Positions 36,717-51,403 of a DNA stretch of 64,000 bases are shown here, in pieces (positions within the stretch are counted from its first letter, which is position 1; every line of letters starts with the position of its first letter). The notes below the pieces were generated by a model. It worked only from the letters and a program-made list of their open reading frames with translations. It was not told the DNA's origin and ran no database searches. The stretch spans positions 1 through 64,000 of the forward strand of contig JARKRC010000069.1 in NCBI GenBank assembly GCA_029974595.1. The letters run 5' to 3'. The stretch comes from Ereboglobus sp. Its GTDB lineage: Bacteria; Verrucomicrobiota; Verrucomicrobiia; Opitutales; Opitutaceae. The position numbers were made by a program, and so were the translations under genes.

Positions 36717-37562
36717 TTATTTGGGCGCGTCTTGGAATTCGATCATGTCCGCAAGCTGGGAAAAATAATCCACTGACCAAATATCCATGACCTTGGCATC
36801 TTTGATGAACGGGCGCACATCCGCTTTCACGGAATCGATGTTTGTTACGGCGATTTTTTCCTTTAGCAGGCGTATGAATGATTCCTTCGTCAGTTCGCTT
36901 TTCTTGAGCGATCCGAATTGATATGCGCGCTGGAGGAAATGCGCGAAGTGCAGTTTTACTCCGTTGCGGACATACCACTCAAAATCATACCAATCGCGAC
37001 CTTTCACCCGATTTTTCCAAGTGCGAAACAGAAGCGCGTGCATTTTGCCAGCATACAAATCCGGCAGCGAGTAGCATCGCGTCATGAACGAAAAGGGCAG
37101 CAGGAGGAGTTTTTGTTCCGTCGAAAAACCGGGAGGCGGGTGAATATCCACTTCGAGTTTGATTTTTACATCATGCTCTTTTTTGAAGCTAAGGTCATAC
37201 ACGGCGGTGTCGTCTTTCAAGAAGGCCGACTCGATATTGGTCTGTTTCGCCTTCCGTTTTTTGCTGATGACGATGTCGCGGCCCAGCGCCTTGAACTCGA
37301 CGGTTATCGCGTCAAAATAGTGCTCCAGCGAAAACGCGGCATCCTCTTTCAGGAGCGAAAAATCCATGTCCTCGGAGAAGCGTTGCATGCCGTAAAAAAT
37401 GCGAAGGCACGTGCCGCCGTAAAACGCCGCCTTGTCGAAAAAACCGCCTCTGTGCAAACCGGCCAATGCGATTTGCTGCATGACTTCATGAAGCGCGTTG
37501 GTGTAATCGTCGTTTGTTTTCACCTCATAGCGGGAAAACATTTGGTCAAAGATGGCGGTCAT
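36717..37562 (-). CDS. AbiEii/AbiGii-type nucleotidyltransferase toxin
   Basis: AAFYGGTCLRIFYGMQRFSEDMDFSLL (GGT..R......SxDxDF). Confidence 0.85.
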   Translation of the reverse strand: MTAIFDQMFSRYEVKTNDDYTNALHEVMQQIALAGLHRGGFFDKAAFYGGTCLRIFYGMQRFSEDMDFSLLKEDAAFSLEHYFDAITVEFKALGRDIVISKKRKAKQTNIESAFLKDDTAVYDLSFKKEHDVKIKLEVDIHPPPGFSTEQKLLLLPFSFMTRCYSLPDLYAGKMHALLFRTWKNRVKGRDWYDFEWYVRNGVKLHFAHFLQRAYQFGSLKKSELTKESFIRLLKEKIAVTNIDSVKADVRPFIKDAKVMDIWSVDYFSQLADMIEFQDAPK

Positions 37563-38206
37563 TTTTTGAGGAGTTTGTAAAGATGCGTGAGTTCAATTTT
37601 CTTTTTTCCGCATGCAGCGCATTGCCCGATGATTTCGGTGTCAAACGCGCTGAGGGCGTCGGGATCGATGCGCATGTCTTCTTCGAGCCAGACGCGCACC
37701 GCCTTTGGCGACTGCAAACGAAGCCCTCGCGTGGTGACAATCATGTCGCATATCGCCTTTTCCGGGGACGCCATGAGCCAAGCGTATTGCTTCCCGATGA
37801 TTTGCTGTCTGATGCCGATGGCGTAATAATCACCGGGGACAGTTATGTATTCAAAATCGCCAAGCAGCGTGGCGATTTTTTTGCCGCGTTTGGCGGTCAC
37901 AGAGCGAACCACATGCACACGTTCCGGTATCAACCCGTAGTGGGCCAACGCGCTTTCAAGCGACACATACGACGGGCCGTAGAGATGATTCGCGACCAGT
38001 TCACGTGAAAATATTTGCCCGTGAATATCCCCTGAAACGAGGTAAACGCCCTTCTTTAGCCGGACAAGCGATCCCTCTTTTTCCAGCGATGCGATTTTAT
38101 TTTGAGGGGATTTGTAGTCACCGAGAATGTCCGCAAGCGTGCCGAAACCAACGGGGACGATTCCAAATTGGGTCAGAGGATTCGTTTTTTGTCTAAGTCG
38201 CTTCAT
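37559..38206 (-). CDS. AbiEi-like antitoxin
   Basis: 4-bp overlap with AbiEii-like gene; winged-helix N-term, RLKKGVYLV, SPEKAICDM. Confidence 0.8.
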   Translation of the reverse strand: MKRLRQKTNPLTQFGIVPVGFGTLADILGDYKSPQNKIASLEKEGSLVRLKKGVYLVSGDIHGQIFSRELVANHLYGPSYVSLESALAHYGLIPERVHVVRSVTAKRGKKIATLLGDFEYITVPGDYYAIGIRQQIIGKQYAWLMASPEKAICDMIVTTRGLRLQSPKAVRVWLEEDMRIDPDALSAFDTEIIGQCAACGKKKIELTHLYKLLKK

Positions 38207-38348: not shown

Positions 38349-39668
38349 TTATTTTTTCGACGAGCGTTGCGCGTCTTCGCGCAACCGACGGGTTTGAACC
38401 AGCATCTCCTTTTCCCAAATCCCCGTGATGCTTTCAGGGACACCGGCATATTTTGCAGCAGCGCGCCAGCCGCCGATAGTTGCATCCTCGACTTGCGCGT
38501 AGATTGATTTTGCGGCACGGCGGTCGATGCCTCCGAGTTCGGCGAGTTTTAAGATTTGATCAAAGCGTGTTGGTATTTCCACGCTGCCGAGCCATGTGAG
38601 GGCGATGAGCACCGTCGCCACGTTTGGGTTCATGTCGTAGGCTGGCGAGAGCATCCAGGTGCGGTCGGTTTCGTTGTAGAGAAATGCGTGATTGCGTCCG
38701 TGGTCGTCGCGATTGGTCGTGAGCAAATTGAAAACGGCGCGGCGGAAACATTCGCGCGCTTCCTCGGCCCCGCCCAAGGCACGCGAGAGTCGGATGAAAT
38801 CCTCGTAGTCGATTGCACCGTCAGACGCACGGCGGTGCAACATGCCGCTGAGTGTGTGGACGTGCCTGCGTGTCCAAGTGCCATCGGCGCGTTGGTGGCG
38901 GTCGAACCGGGCGCTCGCAAAATGCCGGCGCTCGCCATCATGCACGAGACATGCGTGTGGCACGCGAATGCCGGCATGTTTTGCCATGAGCCAGAATGCA
39001 AACTCGACGCTTCCGCCGCCTTCGTCATCCAAGGGCGATAATTTCAGAATGCTTGGCGCATGGCCGGGTGGGGTCGCCCCTCCGATGAGGATATTTTTGA
39101 GCTCCAAAAAATCTCCGCCATCCGGAATGTGCGCGGATACTTTGGGAAATGCGCCCCCGAGGCTTCCGCCGCCGCGAGCGAGCGCGGCGTCAACTGCGCT
39201 TGGAGTGAGGACAACCGGCACTGTGGAACGTTTCGCTAACTTGGCAGCATCGCGCGCCAGTTCGGCAAGGTTTGCCTCAACAGTTTCCGTGTCCGCACCT
39301 TTTCCCAAGACGGGCTCGAACGTGATGGCACCAGGACCACGTTCGCCGATGGCGGCGAGTTTCCCCATCACTGAATTCAAACCGGGCACTTCCAGTTTCA
39401 ACATGCGCTCGCCCCATGAGTCCGGCAACGAGTCGGTGATGAGGCCGGGCAATCCCCCGTCGAAGGGCGAATCGCCGGGGCGAAATACACGCGGGCCGCG
39501 CGCGAAGCTGTCGAGCGGGAGATTGAGCGGCGAAAGTTCGTGCCGCAGCGCCATGAATTCGCGCTCCAATTCGAGGGCGTAGAACGGCCCGTCGGGACGA
39601 TATGCCAGCACGCCCATTGGAGCGCCGAGAAAACGCAAACGCAGGAGGTTGGGTTCTATTTCGGACAT
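38349..39668 (-). CDS. hipA: HipA-type Ser/Thr kinase toxin
   Basis: PGHAPSILKL, HFASARFDRH, FNLLTTNRDDHGRNHAFLY, LSPAYDMNP. Confidence 0.85.
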   Translation of the reverse strand: MSEIEPNLLRLRFLGAPMGVLAYRPDGPFYALELEREFMALRHELSPLNLPLDSFARGPRVFRPGDSPFDGGLPGLITDSLPDSWGERMLKLEVPGLNSVMGKLAAIGERGPGAITFEPVLGKGADTETVEANLAELARDAAKLAKRSTVPVVLTPSAVDAALARGGGSLGGAFPKVSAHIPDGGDFLELKNILIGGATPPGHAPSILKLSPLDDEGGGSVEFAFWLMAKHAGIRVPHACLVHDGERRHFASARFDRHQRADGTWTRRHVHTLSGMLHRRASDGAIDYEDFIRLSRALGGAEEARECFRRAVFNLLTTNRDDHGRNHAFLYNETDRTWMLSPAYDMNPNVATVLIALTWLGSVEIPTRFDQILKLAELGGIDRRAAKSIYAQVEDATIGGWRAAAKYAGVPESITGIWEKEMLVQTRRLREDAQRSSKK

Positions 39669-39686
39669 GGTGAATAACGATAATTT

Positions 39687-40007
39687 TCAGGTGGTTTTCC
39701 TACGACGCGGTGCACGCTGGCGGGCTCGCGTCGGTACGGACGCGAGGAATTCGTCGATGCTTTTTGGTGCTGGTTTCGGCTGTTGCAGTCCTTCGATAAA
39801 TTTGTCCGCAAGCCCAAGTGCTACGAGCAATTTGGCCAATCCGGAAAAGCCGATTCGTCCAGTGTTCTCAAAGCGTCGAAGCGTGGCGATTCCAACGCCG
39901 CTTCGCTGTGCCAAATCATCCTGCCGCCACGACAGAGCCATACGGTGTGCGCGAATTAACTCGCGTACTTCACGGAGAATATCGGCTTCATTTTTAAGTG
40001 ATAACAT
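39687..40007 (-). CDS. hipB: HipB-type HTH antitoxin
   Basis: RMALSWRQDDLAQRSGVGIATLRRFENTGRIGFSGLAKLLVALGLA; immediately upstream of hipA. Confidence 0.8.
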   Translation of the reverse strand: MLSLKNEADILREVRELIRAHRMALSWRQDDLAQRSGVGIATLRRFENTGRIGFSGLAKLLVALGLADKFIEGLQQPKPAPKSIDEFLASVPTRARQRAPRRRKTT

Positions 40008-41682: not shown

Positions 41683-42069
41683 TTAGTATGGATTGCCCGC
41701 CGATGCGGTCTGCCCCTGTCGCATCCCGACGGTGGCGATGACGCCACGTGCGATGCGCGTGAACGCGCCTTCGCGTTGTGCTTCGGGGATGCGTTGCATG
41801 CGGCGTTCGACCTCTTGCTTGATGTTCGGGTTTTCCTCCACGTATTTCCGGACTTCCTCGCGGTAGCCCTGCCGTTGTTCGTTCGTGCGCATGATGTCAT
41901 ACATGCGTTTGCGCACGAGTTCGTCGTGGGAATAGCCCGAAATCCTGGCGAAAAGTTCCGGGTTCTCTTTTATGAAGGCGTCGATTTTTGCGTCGATTTC
42001 AGGGTTGTGGCGAATGCCGGCTTCGCCGTCCTGCTGTTTCTTTTTAGCGATTGCGTCTTTGAGTGCCAT
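41683..42069 (-). CDS. Hypothetical conjugation-associated protein
   Basis: 128 aa charged ORF collinear with T4SS genes. Confidence 0.5.
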   Translation of the reverse strand: MALKDAIAKKKQQDGEAGIRHNPEIDAKIDAFIKENPELFARISGYSHDELVRKRMYDIMRTNEQRQGYREEVRKYVEENPNIKQEVERRMQRIPEAQREGAFTRIARGVIATVGMRQGQTASAGNPY

Positions 42070-42122
42070 GATGGGTGTCGTTATGTTTGATTTTTCGTTT
42101 GTTGGCCGATGTGCGGCGTTGG

Positions 42123-42452
42123 TTAGAGAGCCAGGAGGCTTTGGTTGTAGTCCTCGCCGGGGAGCGGCATCAGGTCGCTGCCTGCGATATCGAGGACGGC
42201 GCTTTCAAATGTGCGGGCGACATCCCACGCGGTGGCGGTTGCGAGCCAGAGACGCATGAGGTCGTCGGTTGTCGGCGACTTACCGAGCGATTTTTCGAGT
42301 TGCTGGCGGGCTTGCTCGAAGATGGTGCGATGGCGCTCCATGACGGGCAATGACTCGGCAGATTTATCGCTGCCATGACTGGCGACGACGCGGTCTTGAG
42401 CGGCGGAAGCTGCCGTAGCAGGAGGAGTGACGGGAGGTGCGGATGTATTCAT
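42123..42452 (-). CDS. Hypothetical protein
   Basis: 109 aa ORF, 4-bp overlap with next upstream gene. Confidence 0.5.
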   Translation of the reverse strand: MNTSAPPVTPPATAASAAQDRVVASHGSDKSAESLPVMERHRTIFEQARQQLEKSLGKSPTTDDLMRLWLATATAWDVARTFESAVLDIAGSDLMPLPGEDYNQSLLAL

Positions 42453-42970
42453 TTTTCCTTTGTGTTTTGTGGTTGTGCCTCGCGCAGGCGGGCGAGTTCG
42501 CGGTTGAGCCGAGCGAGCTCGGCGACAAGGGTTTCGTTTTGCTCGGTGAGCGCGGCCATCAACCGGGTTTGCGCATTCATGCGCTGCTCGATGTCGGCAT
42601 TTGTAGGCGCGGGTTTTTCAGCGGGATCGGAAACCGCCAGCACTGGGCCGAGGGGGACAACGGTCGGGGCGTGCGGGGAAAGATTCCAGCCGGCGGATGC
42701 TTCCTTGCGATAAACCAGATGCGCCTCGTGAAGCAGGTTCGGATCCTTGGGATCAACGTATCGGTTTATCGGATACGCTTTCAAAGTCTCGCCGAGGCGG
42801 ACTTTTTCGAGATTGGCCTGGTCGAGTTCGGTGCCGGAAACGGGCACGGCCACGGTGACGGGTGGCTGCGCGGGAGGCGGAGCTTTTTTGCGGAACATCG
42901 AGCAGCCGCCGAGCAGCGTGGCTGCGATGAGCAGAGCGGGAGCGAGTTTGAGGAGGTGTTGTGTGTTCAT
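42449..42970 (-). CDS. T4SS-associated lipoprotein with coiled-coil
   Basis: Lipobox LLGGCSMF; heptad-rich QTRLMAALTEQNETLVAELARLNRELARLREA. Confidence 0.6.
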   Translation of the reverse strand: MNTQHLLKLAPALLIAATLLGGCSMFRKKAPPPAQPPVTVAVPVSGTELDQANLEKVRLGETLKAYPINRYVDPKDPNLLHEAHLVYRKEASAGWNLSPHAPTVVPLGPVLAVSDPAEKPAPTNADIEQRMNAQTRLMAALTEQNETLVAELARLNRELARLREAQPQNTKEK

Positions 42971-42978
42971 GGTGGATT

Positions 42979-43026
42979 GGAAGTAGGAGTCAGGATGGAA
43001 GGAGTAAGGAGTCAGGAAACGGAAGG
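42979..43026. repeat. AGGAGTCAGGA-type short repeat in T4SS gene junction
   Basis: AGGAGTCAGGATGGAAGGAGTAAGGAGTCAGGAA between the 42449 and 43030 genes. Confidence 0.6.
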
Positions 43027-43029
43027 GCG

Positions 43030-44142
43030 CTATCGCGCCAATGGGAGGGCAGAGTTAAATGTCTTTTCTTCCGGCTCCTTTTCGCTGCTTTTTTGCCAGA
43101 GTTTCGCGCCGCTGTTGCCGCGCACGGCGCGGGCTTTGTCGAGGGTTTGCGTGACGTAGAGGTAGAACTGTTTTCCAGCGGGCACGCGGATATAAAAACC
43201 GTCCTCGGCTATCATTTTGGCGATTTGCGCGGCATAGGTGTTCAGCACGTCGGCGGTGCCCGCGAGGGCTGCGTTTTTGGCTGTTGTTTTGGGGACTTGG
43301 GTCGTCGTTCCAAACGCGGTCGTCTGGTCCTGCATTTCCTGCAGGCCGCCCGCCATGCCGGCAAGAAACGTGGAGGCGAAGAGTTTTATTTCCTGCCAGT
43401 CGTCGGTTTTGATGATGTGCCCGACGAGGCCGGCGGAGCCGTCGCGCAGGCCGTATTCGCCGGAAACCTCGTCGCGCTGGCGGTCGAGTGCGATGCCGTT
43501 GAGCGTGAGTTCGATTCCGTTGTCGGTTGTGCGGTCGCGCCAGACGATCACCCATTGGCCGGAAGCGGCGATGCGTTCGCGTGAGCGGTCTTGCGCAGCG
43601 CGTCCGTGCACTTCAGCGCCAGCGGGAATGATGAGCCGCCCGTTGTGCCAGACGTCCTCGGTAACGAGCCCGATGATCGGGGTGTCGGTTTTAGAGGATT
43701 CGAGGGTGATGATGGTTTCACAAGGGATCAGACGGCCATAGGGCGCGTAGTTCTGCGAGATGGGCTCGCCAGCCACCGAATTTGTAGTTGGAGCGAGGAG
43801 GCTGATCGGGAGAACTGGCGGCCCCTTGGTATTCCGGGTCGGCGTGTTGTTTTCCTGACGCGCCGCACGCGGACGGGAAATCGGCTCGCCATCGCCTGCA
43901 TTTTCCGGCTTCGGCTCGGATCGATTTGGTTGGGGCATCGCTGGCGCGGGGATTTTAAGCGGCTGCCCTTCCCTCGTAATCGTGTGCCGCTCCATCGGCG
44001 GCGGCGGTGTCGATGCAGCTGGCACAGGGCGCTCGCTGCGATTGCCGCCATGAATAAGCAGCGCGCCCACGATCACAAACACGATAATGGAAAGCACGCT
44101 GCCCAGCGGCGTTTTGACGAATTTGATGACGCGTTTGATCAT
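43030..44142 (-). CDS. trbI: VirB10/TrbI-like T4SS protein
   Basis: Single N-terminal TM, proline-rich linker, ITLESSKTDTPIIGLVTEDVWHNGRLIIPAGAEVHGRA. Confidence 0.85.
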   Translation of the reverse strand: MIKRVIKFVKTPLGSVLSIIVFVIVGALLIHGGNRSERPVPAASTPPPPMERHTITREGQPLKIPAPAMPQPNRSEPKPENAGDGEPISRPRAARQENNTPTRNTKGPPVLPISLLAPTTNSVAGEPISQNYAPYGRLIPCETIITLESSKTDTPIIGLVTEDVWHNGRLIIPAGAEVHGRAAQDRSRERIAASGQWVIVWRDRTTDNGIELTLNGIALDRQRDEVSGEYGLRDGSAGLVGHIIKTDDWQEIKLFASTFLAGMAGGLQEMQDQTTAFGTTTQVPKTTAKNAALAGTADVLNTYAAQIAKMIAEDGFYIRVPAGKQFYLYVTQTLDKARAVRGNSGAKLWQKSSEKEPEEKTFNSALPLAR

Positions 44143-45053
44143 TTCGGGGCGATCAGGCGCGCGTCGCGGGAGACGCGCGGCACGATGATATTGAAATTAT
44201 TCCTCACGCTCAGATTCGCGCGTCCGCCGTCGGGCGTACCGGTGATGGCAAAATAGGCGACCGTCTCCGCGCGCGGAGGAATCAGCCCTGACGCGTCCGC
44301 GATGGATGCCGGGTAAAGACGGCTGCCAATGCGCACGGCGAGACTTTGCGGCTGGTAGGCGATTTCCGAGTCGCCGGTGTTTTCGAGTTTTATTTTGAAA
44401 ACGAGCGTGTCCTCGGGATCAAAGCGATACACCTCCTCGACGGTCGCGGAAAAATCCCTGTATTGTGTTTTGTTTTCCGGCGCAGACGGCGCGCGGTGCT
44501 CGATTTGCTGCACGGCCTCGGGATACTGCTGGTTGACGAGGCGGAAACTTTTTGCGCGGTCGAGCAGCGCGAGGAGCATTTCGGGAGAGGCGCGCCTGGC
44601 GAGCGCCGCGCTTTTCCCGGTGATGCGATCCTCATAAAACGTGACCGAGCCATAGGGATTCGCGGCGACGGCAAAGCGGATGATGTAGGTGCGGTTCTGC
44701 AAAATGACGTTGAGTGTCGCGCGGGCGTCGGGTGTCAGCGCGCGCACGCTGAAATAATACCGACCGGCGACATGCGAGAGGAGCACCGGCGCGGGCGTTT
44801 CGGTGTTTGTGGTGAGTCCGGCCCCTTCGAGCGCGGAGGGCGCGCTCGGAAACATGAGTGTCGTCGGTGCGTCCGCGCTGATGGGGATTTGATAGACGAT
44901 GCGCTCATCGAGCGGCAGTTGCTTGACGACGGGCGCACTGTTCGCGGAAAGGATCGGATTCACCACAAAGGCACAAAGGACACAAAGAGAATACATGATT
45001 ATTATATAACTCCTTTGTGATCTTTGTGCCTTTGTGGTGAATAATGTATTCAT
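44139..45053 (-). CDS. trbG: VirB9/TrbG-like T4SS protein
   Basis: DERIVYQIPISADAPTTLMFP; PYGSVTFYEDR; position between TrbF- and TrbI-like genes; start taken at MNTLFTTKAQ. Confidence 0.75.
   Translation of the reverse strand: MNTLFTTKAQRSQRSYIIIMYSLCVLCAFVVNPILSANSAPVVKQLPLDERIVYQIPISADAPTTLMFPSAPSALEGAGLTTNTETPAPVLLSHVAGRYYFSVRALTPDARATLNVILQNRTYIIRFAVAANPYGSVTFYEDRITGKSAALARRASPEMLLALLDRAKSFRLVNQQYPEAVQQIEHRAPSAPENKTQYRDFSATVEEVYRFDPEDTLVFKIKLENTGDSEIAYQPQSLAVRIGSRLYPASIADASGLIPPRAETVAYFAITGTPDGGRANLSVRNNFNIIVPRVSRDARLIAPK
44958..45042. repeat. MITE-like inverted repeat (30-nt arms, 28/30 complementary)
   Basis: ATTCACCACAAAGGCACAAAGGACACAAAG (44958-44987) / CTTTGTGATCTTTGTGCCTTTGTGGTGAAT (45013-45042), 25-nt AT-rich loop. 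Confidence 0.95.
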
Positions 45054-45727
45054 AAAATCGAGAGTTCGTAATTCCATACGGCGAGTGGATAGCGTTTGTT
45101 GGCGATCATATCCGGGTTGCGGACGAGCGTGAGAATGAGCGTGAAACGCGGGGACTCGGTGAAGGCCTGCCGCTCAAATACGCCGGTGCGCACAAGCTGG
45201 CCCTCGACCTTGGCGATGACCTGATCCTCGCGCGTGCGCAAAACATCCACTTTGAAAATTTCCGGTTTTTGATGGATTTGCTTTACCTCGAACTCCTCGC
45301 GGTTTTTCAGCACATCGTCCTGCGTGCGGGCGCAGGCGTCGGTGAGGTAGAGGCGTTGCAGCAGGTCGGGAAAATCGAAGTTTTTTGGATTGCGCTGAAG
45401 AAATGCCAGCGTCGCCCAAATCGTCAGGGTTTCATGCAACGTCTTCGCCTCCTCGAAACCGAGCAGCGGAGAAATGGAAAACGTGCCCGCGCCGTCGAGA
45501 ATGACCACACGCTCGCGCGTGCGGTAGGCTTCTATTATTATGAACGGCTGGATGACCGCGAGCACGACCGCGCCGATGGCGACAAGCGCCCATGCGCGCG
45601 CCGCGAAGGCGTAATCGGCAAACAGGCGCGCAGGATTCCACGAACGACGCGGCTTTGCAGACGGCGGCAGCGGCTTCGCCGTATCGACGGACGTGGTTCG
45701 CAGTGGAGATGGTTCGTCAGCGTTCAT
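45050..45727 (-). CDS. trbF: VirB8/TrbF-like T4SS protein
   Basis: N-terminal TM then VirB8-like domain; VWNYELSIL end; operon position. Confidence 0.75.
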   Translation of the reverse strand: MNADEPSPLRTTSVDTAKPLPPSAKPRRSWNPARLFADYAFAARAWALVAIGAVVLAVIQPFIIIEAYRTRERVVILDGAGTFSISPLLGFEEAKTLHETLTIWATLAFLQRNPKNFDFPDLLQRLYLTDACARTQDDVLKNREEFEVKQIHQKPEIFKVDVLRTREDQVIAKVEGQLVRTGVFERQAFTESPRFTLILTLVRNPDMIANKRYPLAVWNYELSIL

Positions 45728-45730
45728 AAA

Positions 45731-46648
45731 TCAGAGTCCCGGTGTGTGGCGCGCGGACGGCGGCGGAGCGGATGCGGGAGTCATCATCGCAGGGGCGGCG
45801 AGCATGCGCGTGGCGGCCGTCGCGCGGCTGGCGAACTCCGACGCGCCGCGACCGATTGCAACCGGCGATGCCGATTGTCCGGTGAACGCATAACCGTGCG
45901 CAAAGAGCATCTGGCAGACGACCGGCGTCGTGAGCGTTCCGATGAGCAGCGTCAGCGCTGCAATGATGCCGCCCATGTTGACGAGTGTCGGCGCATAGAC
46001 CGCAGCGCCCAGTTCGCCGGGGCCTGGCGCTGCGACCTGCACAAAGTCGCGCCAGATTGCGATGGTGAGAAGATTGGTGATCGCGAATCCGACCGGCCAC
46101 GCGAGCACGGCAAGAACTTGCTGAAAAAAGCGCACGGCCATGCCCTGCAATGCCGGAACCATGAAACAGCCGAGCGCAAACGGCGTGAGCAGATAAAGAA
46201 TCCAGCGCAGCACGTATTGCAGGAGCAGCATCGGCGCGGTGATGAGTGTGCTGATTTGAATAAACACCCACGACACGCCATCGACGACCGCATTATAAAA
46301 TGACTCGGCGAGTTTTCTCCACGACCACTCGCGGCCCTCGGCGTTCGGATTCGCGGCCTCGCGAATGGTGTCGGCGGCGCGCGTGGGGTTGTCCGAATAC
46401 TCCGGGTTGATGTAATCGGCGGCGCCGGTCAGCGTGTTTTCGACAAGCGGAAACCACCAGCCCATCGAGGCGATGAGCGCGGTGATCGTGATGGCGCGGG
46501 CGACGGGCCGGATGAAATCCGTGCTGTGATACTGCGGCCGGTTCACCTGCACGACGAGTCCGGCCACCATCATCGCAAACACAACAAACCGGAACGCCGT
46601 GATGAGCGTCTGGATTTTGTTTTCGAGGAGTGGGAGTATGAAGTTCAT
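45731..46648 (-). CDS. trbL: VirB6/TrbL-like inner-membrane T4SS protein
   Basis: Polytopic protein; start MNFILPLLENK; Pro/Ala-rich C-term. Confidence 0.8.
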   Translation of the reverse strand: MNFILPLLENKIQTLITAFRFVVFAMMVAGLVVQVNRPQYHSTDFIRPVARAITITALIASMGWWFPLVENTLTGAADYINPEYSDNPTRAADTIREAANPNAEGREWSWRKLAESFYNAVVDGVSWVFIQISTLITAPMLLLQYVLRWILYLLTPFALGCFMVPALQGMAVRFFQQVLAVLAWPVGFAITNLLTIAIWRDFVQVAAPGPGELGAAVYAPTLVNMGGIIAALTLLIGTLTTPVVCQMLFAHGYAFTGQSASPVAIGRGASEFASRATAATRMLAAPAMMTPASAPPPSARHTPGL

Positions 46649-46656
46649 TTGTATTG

Positions 46657-46756
46657 AACAGCAAAGGCGCAAAGTTCGCAAAGATTCGGAAAGATATTAT
46701 GACTATTATAATTATTCCTTCTGTCTGATCTTTGCGAACTTTGCGCCTTTGCTGTT
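46657..46756. repeat. MITE-like inverted repeat (29-nt perfect arms)
   Basis: AACAGCAAAGGCGCAAAGTTCGCAAAGAT / ATCTTTGCGAACTTTGCGCCTTTGCTGTT, AT-rich 42-nt centre. Confidence 0.95.
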
Positions 46757-46763
46757 TATTCAA

Positions 46764-47567
46764 TTAACGGCCCGCTTTGCGCGGATTGAACGACTGCATG
46801 AATACGGTCACGCGCTTGTTCGCCAGATGGTCGTCCTTTGCGCGAAGCTCGGCGGCGGCGAGTTGCTCGACCTCGCGGCGGTTTTCGTTCGCGAGCTTTT
46901 GCAGGATCACCTCGTCCACCTGGCGGCGGCGCGTCGATTCGAGCTGCGAAAGCTGGCCATTGAGGACGACGAGCTTGGCATTGAGTTTTTGCACCTGCGC
47001 ATCGGTTGTGGCGGAGCGCAGGTCGATAAGCGTCAGGGCGATTTCCTCCTGAAGCTCGCGTTCGCGGGAGCGCGTTTCATCGGTGACGGCGCGGGCGTTG
47101 TCCTGACGGGTATCGAGCACCGAATATCTCCGGTAAAGCTGCGCGTCGTGCCGCACAAGGCCGCCGTCGAGATCGGCAAGATCGACGGGGCGATAGGTGT
47201 TTTGATCGTCGCGGTTGAGCGCGCCAAGACTGTCCACGGTGCGCGTGATCGTGTCGCGCGCGTGTCCAAACTCGCGCGTCAAATCGCCTTCGCGCAGCAC
47301 GTCGAGCGCGAGGGAGCGTGCGGCCTTTGCCGGATCGCCCGCCCATGCGCGCAGGTCGTTCTGGATCGCGACGCTTTGCTTGAGTTGCGTGATCTGCGCT
47401 TTCAGTTGCGCGATGTTTTCGACCCACTTCGCGATGGTCGCGATATGCGAAATCTGGCTGTTCGCGAGATTGGCGACATCGACCACGGGAATGCCGGAGG
47501 CGACAAGCAGCGCCGTGCCCGCGATGCCGGCGGACAGAAATGAGAATATGCGTGTGATGGTTTTCAT
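46764..47567 (-). CDS. trbJ: VirB5/TrbJ-like T4SS protein
   Basis: GIPVVDVANLANSQI...AQLKAQITQLKQSV; operon position. Confidence 0.75.
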   Translation of the reverse strand: MKTITRIFSFLSAGIAGTALLVASGIPVVDVANLANSQISHIATIAKWVENIAQLKAQITQLKQSVAIQNDLRAWAGDPAKAARSLALDVLREGDLTREFGHARDTITRTVDSLGALNRDDQNTYRPVDLADLDGGLVRHDAQLYRRYSVLDTRQDNARAVTDETRSRERELQEEIALTLIDLRSATTDAQVQKLNAKLVVLNGQLSQLESTRRRQVDEVILQKLANENRREVEQLAAAELRAKDDHLANKRVTVFMQSFNPRKAGR

Positions 47568-47571
47568 GGAG

Positions 47572-47982
47572 TCATTCGGTGCGGATGGTTGCGGTTGAGG
47601 GACGGATCACGACGCCGTCGGCGGTGACGGTTTCGGGAAGCTGGACGGTGACGTAGCGCGGCTCGGACGCGGACACGCCGTCGCTGCGCTGATGGTTTTG
47701 GATGATCCAGTATTGCTGCTTCACGGACTGGTTAATGGCGTGGTCGAAGCCTCGCTTCTCCGCGTCGGCAATCGCAGCGTCGATTTCATTAAGGGCAATT
47801 TTTGAGGCGATGTAACCGGCGCCCGCGCCGATTGCCGCGCCGCCGATTTTTTTGCCGCTTGCTTCGTAGCCAATGTAGCCACCGGCGCCGGTGAGCACGA
47901 CATCGGTCGCCGGCTGGCGCATCGTGCCGCAACCTGAAAGCATCAAACATGCGATGATAATAAACGAAGGGATTGTTTTCAT
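47572..47982 (-). CDS. Glycine-zipper lipoprotein
   Basis: LSGCGTM lipobox; GAGGYIGYEASGKKIGGAAIGAGAGYIASK. Confidence 0.65.
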   Translation of the reverse strand: MKTIPSFIIIACLMLSGCGTMRQPATDVVLTGAGGYIGYEASGKKIGGAAIGAGAGYIASKIALNEIDAAIADAEKRGFDHAINQSVKQQYWIIQNHQRSDGVSASEPRYVTVQLPETVTADGVVIRPSTATIRTE

Positions 47983-47984
47983 AA

Positions 47985-48020
47985 TTTCTAATTCCTACTT
48001 TCTACTTTCTACTTTTTCCC
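47985..48020. repeat. CTACTTT-type tandem short repeat in gene junction
   Basis: CCTACTTTCTACTTTCTACTTTTT; minus strand reads ...KVESRK. Confidence 0.65.
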
Positions 48021-50608
48021 GGTTGTATGTTGCGCACGGTGCCGCATAGCGGCGGATCGGTGACGGGCGTGAAAAAGCAAATGGAAGAAAACTTCTGTCC
48101 ATCGGGCTGCTGTTCGGGCATGGGGTAATTCTGGATCGCCGAGCACACGCTCTCGGGAAGGCCGATGTCGTGCGCGATGTCGTCGATGTCCGTGCGGTCG
48201 AACTGCCGCATGAGGAAGAATTGCTTCGAGTTGCCGATGACGACGGGCCGGATGCGCGAGGATTTGAAGCGGCTGTATTGCTGGACAATCGAAGCCGTCC
48301 AGCACGAAAACTTGCGCAGTTGCGCGTAGGCTTCGGCGACGACTTTCTCGCCGCCGGGAACGTCGAGAAAGCGTGCCAGCTCCTCGTAGAGGATGCGTTT
48401 TCGCAGATGGCGCGGCAGCGAAATAATATGCTGGCGCGAGAATCCGCTGATAAGCAGGCCGGCGGCGGTTTTGAGTTCGATGGATTGCTCGGGGATGTAT
48501 CCGAGTTCAAAATGCGCGATCTGCCCTGTGAGAGAAATATTCGTGATGCCGTCGAAGAGCCGCCCGTATTGTCCATGCGCGCACCACGAGGCGAGAAGCG
48601 TCGCGAGGTGATCGACGGTTTCCTTTTTGTGCTCGGGAAAGCGGGAAAATTGCATCAGCTCCACGAGGCTCGCGTGCTGGGGATAATCGGCGGGCTCGTA
48701 GAAGGCATGCGCCATCGCCATGACGGCGCGCTCGGTTTGCGAGTCTTGCAGAAACGCTGTGATGTCCGCCTCTGGAATCGCGGCTATGAATTGCTGCGCC
48801 TCGTCATCGTTTGCCGCGATGCGGTCGCGCAGATCGGCGTAGGATTCGAGATCCGTCGCGCCTTGCTGCATTTTTATATACTTCCAACGATGCGCGGCGC
48901 AGGCCATGCGCTGGATTTGCGGGAGCAAATCGCGATGCCGTTTCGACCAGTCCTCGAATGCGTCCTGATAAAGCTGGTTGATATACTGGCCCAGCATCGC
49001 CTGGCGGATTTGCTGTGTTTCCTCGTCGGAGGCCTCGCCGATCATGCGCGACACGAGCGCGACGGCGGTGGCAATTTGCAGTTGGTTGAGCGGCAGTTTT
49101 CTCGTGTCGAGATAGTTGATGGTCAGGTCGCCGTCGGGATGGAGAATGATCGGACGCTCGCCCATCGCCTCCGTGAATTTTCCATAGGACAATCCCTCCT
49201 CGATGATGACGGTATAGTGGTAGTAGGCGGCGGTCTGTTCGAGCAGATCGCACATGTGCACGGATTTTCCCGCGCCGGTCGCGCCGAGGAGCACGGCGTG
49301 CTGGGGCGTGGGCGGATTGCCAATAAACGTGCGCAGGCCGACGAGATTGCCTTGCTGCGCGCCGTCGTAGATTGCCTCGGCTCCGTCGAGCAATCCGGTG
49401 AACGTTGCCGAGAACGGCAGCAGGTCGGCAAGGTAGGTGTCCTCGGCGTAGAGATTGCGGTGGCGATACGGCGAATGCGTCCATCCCGGCCATGAAGCGA
49501 AGAAGAGTTTTTTGGCGGTCGAGGGCAGCGCGCACTCATTGTATTGCGCGCCGTTGAGATTGTTGATGGCGTTGCGAACGGCGGCGCATTTTGTGGAGAG
49601 GCCCGATTCGGTGTCATCCCATACGCGAATCATGTAGCAGACGGAAAACGGGCGGATGAAACCGGATGAGAGTGATTCGACTTTGCGCTCCTTTTTGTTG
49701 ATGGCGACGACGAGCGAATGGCGTTCGCTGTCGCGGTATTCGCCGCGCAGCCGTTCGATGGCGCGCTCCTCCTTTTCGACTTCGCCTTTTGTCGGCAGCG
49801 GTTCGAGGTTGACCGTGACTTGATAGTCGAGAAACGGCAGCGTGGTGAGTCGCAAAATGATGCCCGGATAGGTGCGGCTCGGCCAGCGTTTGAACGTGAA
49901 GACCGCGTGGTAGCGCCCGTCGAGATAAAAACCGGTGCCGGTATTCACGCCGTCGGAGCACCAGCAGTTTTCATGGATGGTTTGCTGCGGGTTGAAGCGC
50001 TCGGCGAAGTCGATGTCAAAACCGTCGGCGAGCGACGGGCTCATAAATTTTGAGACATACGTGAAGTGCGCGAGATCATCCATTGGCGTGACCGTCGTGT
50101 CGCCGCCGAAAAGCGTGCGCAGGGAATGGGTGATTTCGTCGAAACGCGCGCGCAGTTGTGCGAGCACTTTCGAGTAACTGGCATCGAGTCCGCTGCGGCT
50201 GGCGGCGAGCGGCGCATAGCTCGCGAGCGAGGTTGATATGAACATCACCAGCTGCTCGCGGCGCAGTTCGCGCCGGTGCATTTTTTCCCAATAGCGTTCG
50301 AATCGTTCCGTCCGCACGCGGCGAACATGCGGATGCGTGCCGATGGCTTCGGTGGCGCGGTGATACCGGGTTAATTCCTGGCGGTAATCGCAGTTGCACG
50401 TCCACTGGAATTGCGCGCGCAGGCCGTCGCCGAGAAGTGAGAGCAGCGCGCGGATTTTGTCCTGATAGGCGTTGAGCTGCGCGGTTGTGCCGCCGCGCAG
50501 GTCGGGCGGATGCAGGATGTAGCCCTTGCCCGCCACGCCTTTTTCAAGCGTGCCGTAGAGGATCATGCCCTCTGCAAAGTAACCGTTCGGTGCGCTGCTA
50601 TTGAGCAT
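48002..50608 (-). CDS. trbE: VirB4/TrbE-like T4SS ATPase
   Basis: Walker A LLGATGAGKSVH; VirB4-like length and C-terminal ATPase. Confidence 0.9.
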   Translation of the reverse strand: MLNSSAPNGYFAEGMILYGTLEKGVAGKGYILHPPDLRGGTTAQLNAYQDKIRALLSLLGDGLRAQFQWTCNCDYRQELTRYHRATEAIGTHPHVRRVRTERFERYWEKMHRRELRREQLVMFISTSLASYAPLAASRSGLDASYSKVLAQLRARFDEITHSLRTLFGGDTTVTPMDDLAHFTYVSKFMSPSLADGFDIDFAERFNPQQTIHENCWCSDGVNTGTGFYLDGRYHAVFTFKRWPSRTYPGIILRLTTLPFLDYQVTVNLEPLPTKGEVEKEERAIERLRGEYRDSERHSLVVAINKKERKVESLSSGFIRPFSVCYMIRVWDDTESGLSTKCAAVRNAINNLNGAQYNECALPSTAKKLFFASWPGWTHSPYRHRNLYAEDTYLADLLPFSATFTGLLDGAEAIYDGAQQGNLVGLRTFIGNPPTPQHAVLLGATGAGKSVHMCDLLEQTAAYYHYTVIIEEGLSYGKFTEAMGERPIILHPDGDLTINYLDTRKLPLNQLQIATAVALVSRMIGEASDEETQQIRQAMLGQYINQLYQDAFEDWSKRHRDLLPQIQRMACAAHRWKYIKMQQGATDLESYADLRDRIAANDDEAQQFIAAIPEADITAFLQDSQTERAVMAMAHAFYEPADYPQHASLVELMQFSRFPEHKKETVDHLATLLASWCAHGQYGRLFDGITNISLTGQIAHFELGYIPEQSIELKTAAGLLISGFSRQHIISLPRHLRKRILYEELARFLDVPGGEKVVAEAYAQLRKFSCWTASIVQQYSRFKSSRIRPVVIGNSKQFFLMRQFDRTDIDDIAHDIGLPESVCSAIQNYPMPEQQPDGQKFSSICFFTPVTDPPLCGTVRNIQPGKSRK

Positions 50609-50945
50609 GATTTTTTCTCCCTTGTTTCATGCTGCGTTGTCCGGCAGGCGCATGGCTGAACCCTTCGCGATTCAGCAGATGGTCAAAAAAGTCCTCCGCA
50701 TAGCCGTCCGGCTTGTTGCGGCGGAACAGCATCACCCATGCCGTGGGAATCGCGAAGATCGGCATCGCGCACGCGCAGGCCGCCAGCAAGCTCGTGTGAA
50801 ACATGCCGAAGAGGAGCAGGAACACGCCAATCGCCCCGACGATCCCTCCAATGATAAAGAGAAAATCGTTTCCCTCAAACCCCAGCGCGCGCCCCTTGCT
50901 GTCGTTGGCGCTGTTGGTGTCGGTGATGCGCAGTTCGCCGCTCAT
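50598..50945 (-). CDS. trbD: VirB3/TrbD-like T4SS protein
   Basis: Small two-TM protein immediately upstream of VirB4-like gene. Confidence 0.7.
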   Translation of the reverse strand: MSGELRITDTNSANDSKGRALGFEGNDFLFIIGGIVGAIGVFLLLFGMFHTSLLAACACAMPIFAIPTAWVMLFRRNKPDGYAEDFFDHLLNREGFSHAPAGQRSMKQGRKNHAQ

Positions 50946-50987
50946 GGCCGTCCAATTAGTAATTCGTCATTTGTAATTGGTAATTTT
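50946..50987. repeat. ATTAGTAATTCGTCATTTGTAATT-type short repeat filling trbC-trbD gap
   Basis: AATTAGTAATTCGTCATTTGTAATTGGTAATTTT. Confidence 0.65.
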
Positions 50988-51329
50988 CTAAAACTGCGGT
51001 GTCAGCGCGCCGTCGCTCATGCCGAAGATGTAGAACATCGCCGCCATTATGGATGCGGCGCCGGCAATGATGATGCCCGAGACAATGCCCATTTTCCCGT
51101 CGGCATCGCCTTTCTTGAGGCGGTCGGCCCCGCCCCAGATGTTTATGACGCCCCAGATGAACCCGATCATGAACAGCAGGCCGAGGCCGTATTGGAAGCC
51201 GGTCTTCACCTGCGAGGGAACTTGCGCGACGACTGATGGAACTGCTGACGCAGCGGACATTCGAGCGCACGTGAGCATCATGCCGGCAAATACAATGGCG
51301 ATTCGGAGCAAAGAGAGGATACTTTTCAT
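50988..51329 (-). CDS. trbC: VirB2/TrbC-like pilin
   Basis: Signal peptide plus two TM segments, start MKSILSL; first gene of T4SS block. Confidence 0.75.
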   Translation of the reverse strand: MKSILSLLRIAIVFAGMMLTCARMSAASAVPSVVAQVPSQVKTGFQYGLGLLFMIGFIWGVINIWGGADRLKKGDADGKMGIVSGIIIAGAASIMAAMFYIFGMSDGALTPQF

Positions 51330-51403
51330 GACGGAGATTGTGATCCCTCCGCGCTCCACGCCGCGTGGAGTTATCCGAAAGAATCATGCCCCATCATGCC
51401 CGA

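Follow-up and report, generated by a model that had tools for sequence, protein, structure and literature searches.

Among the closest described systems, the paired tandem repeats of Geobacter metallireducens have been presented as predicted global regulator binding sites of three classes, with integration host factor (IHF) and HU as the predicted ligands; the units measure 7-9 nt, the arrays of classes 1 and 2 come in pairs on opposite strands with variable separation, and class 3 is a heptamer array (PMC2700814). The GGGAATC repeats of Xanthomonas and the GGGGA(T/C)T repeats of Nostoc have a period of 7, are approximately 90% intergenic, and often occur as inverted pairs, with 70-75 such cases among about 185 repeats (PMC4692102, which also cites heptanucleotide repeats of like kind in Calothrix). 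TAACTGA direct repeats of marine Beggiatoaceae, Cyanobacteria, and Bacteroidetes form mostly intergenic heptamer arrays that are patchily distributed across phyla, occupy lineage-specific positions, and change in length by 7-nt steps (PMC4679880). Elements of this already known kind are found at five of the 11 junctions of a VirB/Trb-type operon for a conjugation-type type IV secretion system (T4SS; 41683-51359, minus strand) in Ereboglobus sp. (Verrucomicrobiota). The window analyzed here comprises the first 64 kb of the 182.6-kb contig JARKRC010000069.1, from a genome of 4.07 Mb in 77 contigs. An earlier note on this DNA had located a different repeat at each of these five junctions, and all five segments were recovered where it placed them.

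It is likely that these segments represent tolerated, lineage-specific insertions of short-tandem-repeat elements that occur genome-wide and do not belong to the secretion machinery, with one of them retained as signal-peptide coding sequence. Although the five strings all differ, in agreement with the proposal that no two junctions share a type, they follow only two designs, namely three heptamer arrays (AGGAGTC, AAAGTAG, and GTAATTC) and two hairpins (CACAAAG and GCAAAG). The tandem 7-nt unit typical of heptamer long simple-sequence repeats or short tandemly repeated repetitive (STRR) sequences is present in three of the five segments, and the period-7 arrays are mostly intergenic and dispersed, as expected of STRR sequences. 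The array of AGGAGTC/AGGAGTA units (42983-43026, minus strand; period 7 at 42985-43017 by Tandem Repeats Finder) is located in the 59-nt gap between trbI/virB10 (43030-44142) and the small gene of a putative lipoprotein (42449-42970). The second array (47985-48020, minus strand), reading AAAGTAG on the coding strand at the junction of virB4 and a small gene, is the sole strong period-7 run of the window in a periodicity scan, and the GTAATTC-type array (50946-50987, minus strand) occupies the whole 42-nt gap between the virB2-like gene and the PrgI gene. Both hairpins carry short tandem units of the (C)RCAAAG type in each arm, spaced at 8-9 nt and hence not heptamers. The CACAAAG hairpin (44958-45042), at the virB8/virB9 junction, has 30-nt arms of three tandem units each that are 93% complementary and enclose a 25-nt A+T-rich loop, while the GCAAAG hairpin (46657-46756), at the virB5/trbL junction, has 29-nt arms that are 100% complementary and a 42-nt loop; both reported palindromes are thus real, and both show a paired-array design of approximately three tandem units on opposite strands with variable spacing. 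The description of each repeat as filling the gap between adjacent genes applies to the GCAAAG hairpin (gap 46649-46763), to 50946-50987, and roughly to 42979-43026, but the CACAAAG hairpin overlaps virB9, and the AAAGTAG array extends into virB4, whose last codons and TAG stop come from the array.

The operon was delineated by Pfam matches (TraG P-loop for VirB4, TrbL, and TrbI, with PrgI and T4SS/VirB5 below cut-off) and by gene order, from which the genes lacking a match were named: virB2-like, PrgI, virB4, a small gene, virB5, trbL/virB6, virB8, virB9/trbG, trbI/virB10, the lipoprotein gene, and two small genes. Its six remaining junctions are repeat-free, consisting of overlaps, gaps of 3-4 nt, and one 53-nt gap. 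The same gene order is conserved in ten homologous operons (L030-L039, of which L030-L033 belong to the same genus) at which every junction was read, with the small genes absent from some. Such a comparison had been recommended by the earlier note; since at most of these junctions the genes of same-genus relatives overlap or lie a short distance apart without a repeat, the window repeats are lineage-specific insertions. The trbI/lipoprotein genes overlap by 4 nt in L030-L033, and in same-genus relatives virB8 and virB9 overlap by 28 nt (except in L030, which has its own hairpin), virB5 and trbL are separated by 9 nt (except in L032/L033), virB4 and the next gene are separated by -13 or +14 nt, and virB2 and PrgI are separated by 21-30 nt without repeats. 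Blast-anchored gaps measured 176 vs 65, 111 vs 54, and 139 vs 33 nt. Likewise, three junctions conserved in the same-genus genome G001 are about 75-110 nt longer here (133 vs ~59, 161 vs ~49, and 260 vs ~165 nt), and the extra length holds an element. The L030 hairpin is built of CACGGAG units, and its sister operon L031, with flanks 89.6% identical, has no hairpin. On the operon tree, a virB8/virB9 hairpin gained twice requires 2 steps, whereas a single gain followed by two losses requires 3, which slightly favors independent gains in the window lineage and L030. At the virB5/trbL junction, where the window has its GCAAAG hairpin, L032 and L033 (the second T4SS copy in G001 and G003) carry a 3.7-kb multi-gene insertion.

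The genome-wide nature of these elements was surveyed in a 741-kb sample (18%) of the genome, with genes called by a home-made program that gives approximate starts. A total of 41 period-7 arrays were found in 104 kb of intergenic sequence, compared with 0, 0, 1, 0, and 0 in Markov controls and with 4 each for periods 6 and 8, the enrichment being confined to period 7 and its multiple 14. At a threshold of at least 12 of 14 matches, 34 arrays occurred in 110 kb of non-coding sequence, while the 632 kb of coding sequence yielded 14, some of these in doubtful short open reading frames (ORFs). More than 12 heptamer unit types are present (AATGCGG, ACTCGCT, AAATCCC, AAGGGTG, AAATTAG, AAAATCG, AATCTAG, and others), some arrays change unit with the 7-nt phase kept, and many are paired in inverted orientation to form hairpins. 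This repertoire accounts for the different repeat at each junction: the strings do differ, as had been considered unusual, because the genome has many unit types. As to individual strings, CAGCAAAGGCGCAAAG of the GCAAAG hairpin occurs five times in its own genome and once each in G001 and G003, GTAATTCGTAATTC of the GTAATTC array occurs six times in its own genome and not in G001 or G003, and AGGAGTCAGGAGTC of the AGGAGTC array has 33 matches in G001, which is a single contig. In G001 (C1:107486-114542) and G003 (C1:23602-31696), AGGAGTC arrays recur every 0.5-2 kb across about 7-8 kb, apparently as one repeat type. With respect to described systems, one G-rich unit was studied in each of the Xanthomonas and Nostoc genomes, in contrast to the many and mostly not G-rich units here, so the quadruplex argument made for those repeats is inapplicable.

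The placement of the elements is most simply explained by selection removing insertions from genes, one of two causes that had been suggested, in view of the contrast between non-coding and coding sequence, the lack of an orientation preference, and the two operon copies (of five) that intrude into genes at sites where frame or stop is preserved. Of the other suggestion, junction-targeted insertion, the insertion itself is borne out by the homologous operons, but active targeting is not; co-directional junctions carry little or no excess of elements for their number, with 36 elements being co-directional, 12 convergent, and 4 divergent, against 350, 68, and 70 junctions, respectively. This distribution is similar to that in Xanthomonas and Nostoc (65-70% co-directional, 16% convergent, and 7-8% divergent; PMC4692102). 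In the genome sample, arrays showed no orientation preference (for AGGAGTC, 5 same and 9 opposite), and an orientation-dependent function was rejected on this ground; the TAACTGA repeats differ in this respect, as most of those in the Guaymas strain immediately precede start codons and share one orientation (PMC4679880). Provision of stop codons in all three frames was likewise rejected as the purpose of the arrays, because such stops occur equally in sense and antisense direction (11 vs 10, n=35).

The CACAAAG hairpin overlaps the 5' end of virB9/trbG in the same reading frame. Read in the sense of the transcript, its left arm gives TTKAQRSQRS and its right arm SLCVLCAFVV, and whichever of the three frames is read, the left arm yields a cationic peptide and the right arm a hydrophobic one, a property that would enable such a hairpin to act as a signal-peptide module. 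The open frame across the hairpin reads MELRTLDFMNTLFTTKAQRSQRSYIIIMYSLCVLCAFVVNPILSANS... in the window and MELRTDTLMKRILTTETRRPRRAHGVINGYLLNNFFSVFLRVSVVNLFVIILSTVVAHAGSKS at the corresponding place of L030, remaining open through the element in both genomes, and the length differences of virB9 from its relatives (57, 42, 108, and 93 nt) are all multiples of 3. The hairpin therefore has the capacity to code for, and probably encodes, the charged and hydrophobic parts of a predicted VirB9/TrbG signal peptide.

Beyond the genus, an exact 21-mer from the outer arm of the CACAAAG hairpin, TTCACCACAAAGGCACAAAGG, recurs in at least 115 stretches that represent at least 15 phylum-level groups, where about 0.1 would be expected by chance (257 billion bases searched, equal base frequencies assumed); this exact recurrence across phylum-level groups is new here. 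By record titles, the groups include Planctomycetota, Latescibacterota, Bacteroidota, KSB1, Chloroflexota, Acidobacteriota, Pseudomonadota, Cyanobacteriota, Hydrogenedentota, desulfobacteria, TA06/WOR-3, Cloacimonadota, Nitrospinota, Sumerlaeota, Abditibacteriaceae, and Verrucomicrobiota. Many sources are metagenome-assembled genomes (MAGs), with about a dozen loci from one Anaerolineae MAG, and the isolates include Spirosoma, Oryzomonas, Azospirillum, Niveibacterium, Microcystis, and Roseofilum. An inverted partner accompanies 51 distinct sites (consensus ACCACAAAGgCACAAAGaaCACAAAG), the loops and flanks of cross-phylum copies are unrelated, and 31 of the 116 sites listed fall within crude ORFs of at least 100 aa, against a coding coverage of 87%. 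One of the cross-phylum loci, L108, offers a similar-looking signal-peptide case (MRKLVLAKPKLIFSIIFFVILGVLCAFVVKKG...) in an unannotated ORF. Sharing is also seen for AGGAGTCAGGAGTC, which occurs in genomes of Planctomycetota, Microcystis, and Nitrospinota (one of them with 71 matches, the reversed pattern used as a control giving almost none), and for GTAATTCGTAATTC, which occurs 29 times in a Chloroflexaceae genome and 23 times in the cyanobacterial genome of Komarekiella. No pan-bacterial spread was seen for the AAAGTAG arrays, with three matches in all, or for the GCAAAG hairpin, with matches within the genus only. A wider interpretation, which we regard as no better than tentative, is that many phyla share a vocabulary of 7-9-nt tandem-repeat hairpins, identical over at least 20 bases and subject to common spread or regeneration, of which the CACAAAG type can be domesticated as signal peptides, given that one arm codes for a charged, hydrophilic peptide and the other for a hydrophobic one whichever frame is used.

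Among competing explanations, a mobile, non-autonomous element preferring stop-codon-adjacent or intergenic sites, similar to a miniature inverted-repeat transposable element (MITE) or a repetitive extragenic palindrome (REP) and mobilized by a Y1 transposase of the REP-associated tyrosine transposase (RAYT) type or another transposase, retains some standing but is unlikely. The CACAAAG hairpins share their outer ends (TTCACCAC...GTGGTGAA) around unrelated loops, Y1_Tnp genes are present in the genome (six matches) and in relatives, and the virB8/virB9 junction was struck in both the window and L030 with different units. A transposed unit would share its loop, however, and the loops differ between copies; the heptamer arrays lack defined ends; and the 21-mer was found on only one viral contig of 2.9 million. 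The inverted arms of a MITE are present, but inspection revealed no clear target-site duplication, only a 4-of-5 match (TATTG/TATTC) at 46657-46756. REPs tagged with GTAG/CGTC (PMC3733652) resemble the window elements as short, high-copy intergenic palindromes but differ in that the window copies are untagged, their arms are tandem arrays, and their loops are not conserved. By inspection, the outer ends of the window copies are ATTCACCAC and (TTGA)ACAGC, unlike the 20-40-bp REP palindrome with a GTAG or CGTC tag at one end. G002, of the same genus, has 42 Y1 transposase (PF01797) matches, whereas its congeners have 6-8 each. Separate G+C-rich palindromes resembling true REPs (GGTAGGGCGAAGCC..., CACGGGCTGGCAGCCCGTG) exist alongside the tandem-repeat hairpins in the Ereboglobus genome sample (e.g., C4 55849-55924, C9 4037-4175, and C18 8703-8791).

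Binding by nucleoid or global regulatory proteins such as IHF/HU, as proposed for G. metallireducens, appears improbable. The published class 2 sites (three tandem TCTCCGTS[Y] units on opposite strands at variable distance; PMC2700814) do match the L030 hairpin in design and in unit (CTCCGTG...TCTCCGTG), and variable loops between conserved arms would suit a protein that binds two inverted arrays. The window units CTTTGTG and CTTTGCG, however, differ from the class 2 consensus, so that they share the design and are not assigned to that class, and CACAAAG and GCAAAG units do not figure in the descriptions given in the main text of that paper, where the IHF/HU role is itself a prediction. Moreover, more than 12 unrelated unit sequences would require different proteins, and the placement of elements in the operon varies among close relatives. 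The literal repeat strings had no match in literature text, mainly open-access and without supplements.

Slightly less probable still is a role in mRNA processing, mRNA stability, or translational decoupling, the first and last of which the earlier note had raised as possibilities. If transcribed, the hairpins are predicted to form highly stable RNA duplexes of about 29 bp (-55.8 kcal/mol, z -12.1, for 46657-46756 and -48.6 kcal/mol for 44958-45042; 0 of 200 shuffles as low), which would be candidates for RNase III cleavage, and both lie between genes that in relatives overlap or are almost contiguous. Strong predicted structure is nonetheless absent from three of the five segments, a scan for intrinsic terminators with loops of at most 8 nt reported neither hairpin (visual inspection likewise showed no T-run), and relatives keep the same operon without repeats. 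Rfam gave no match at gathering score, only sub-threshold hits to eukaryotic microRNAs (E 3e-5 to 0.44). Weak structure in most segments, the lack of terminators, and the negative strand and stop-codon tests together make a common RNA role in the operon unlikely. An assembly or binning artefact is hardly credible, because the single-contig G001 carries elements of the same class and the virB9 hairpin fits the reading frame, although the 77-contig assembly does contain runs of N and poly-C.

Under the preferred interpretation of tolerated insertion, the elements, which are either single heptamer arrays or hairpins composed of two inverted tandem arrays (units of 7-9 nt), would have entered the operon after this lineage split from its sister lineages and would persist mainly at gene junctions that tolerate them, selective tolerance being the putative cause of their placement and purifying selection keeping them out of genes. 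Part of the unit repertoire would be drawn from one common to bacterial phyla. Replication slippage could lengthen or alter the arms one unit at a time. The arms of one element are more alike than those of different elements (0.69 vs 0.55; reached in 0 of 5000 shuffles), which suggests fold-back copying or paired insertion as the probable origin of the hairpins; the virB8/virB9 hairpin, kept in frame, would then have come to encode signal-peptide parts. Several points weigh against this interpretation. The operon has 4-6 elements where about one would be expected (4, 6, or 5 of 11 junctions depending on the threshold, compared with 9.4-10.9% for the remaining co-directional junctions; post hoc binomial P 0.0004-0.015), and neutral insertion leaves this clustering unexplained, for which selection bias in how the case was found may be responsible. 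Identical 21-mers across phyla would have to be explained by transfer, by strong constraint, or by a common generator, and the analysis identified neither a transposase for the elements nor a target-site duplication or a mobile intermediate. Similar hairpins at the same junction in L030 and the window hint at site preference. Two elements lie at synteny breakpoints (C4 104373-104464 and 211719-211867) and at least three lie in conserved adjacencies, numbers too small to decide; blocks of G001 and G003 show too little synteny for orthologous junctions to be compared across the genome.

Two further features concern the surroundings of the operon. AbiEii/AbiEi (AbiEi below cut-off) and HipA/HTH-partner pairs at 36717-38206 and 38349-40007 (minus strand) adjoin it, and these toxin-antitoxin-like pairs suggest an integrative element. 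Past the lipoprotein gene, between the two small genes, L030-L035 share a 93-108-nt intergenic sequence (e.g., ACAAGGTCAA..GCCACTGGCGACCAGCCGCCTTG..AATGGCTGG) that is absent from the window at 42070-42122 and is possibly a structured or regulatory element.

These elements matter for annotation, as they give rise to false small ORFs and to N- or C-terminal extensions. The virB9 case illustrates how an insertion could reshape the signal peptide of an exported protein while leaving the gene intact, and the identical 21-mer makes the origin and travel of heptamer-type intergenic repeats testable with one defined sequence.

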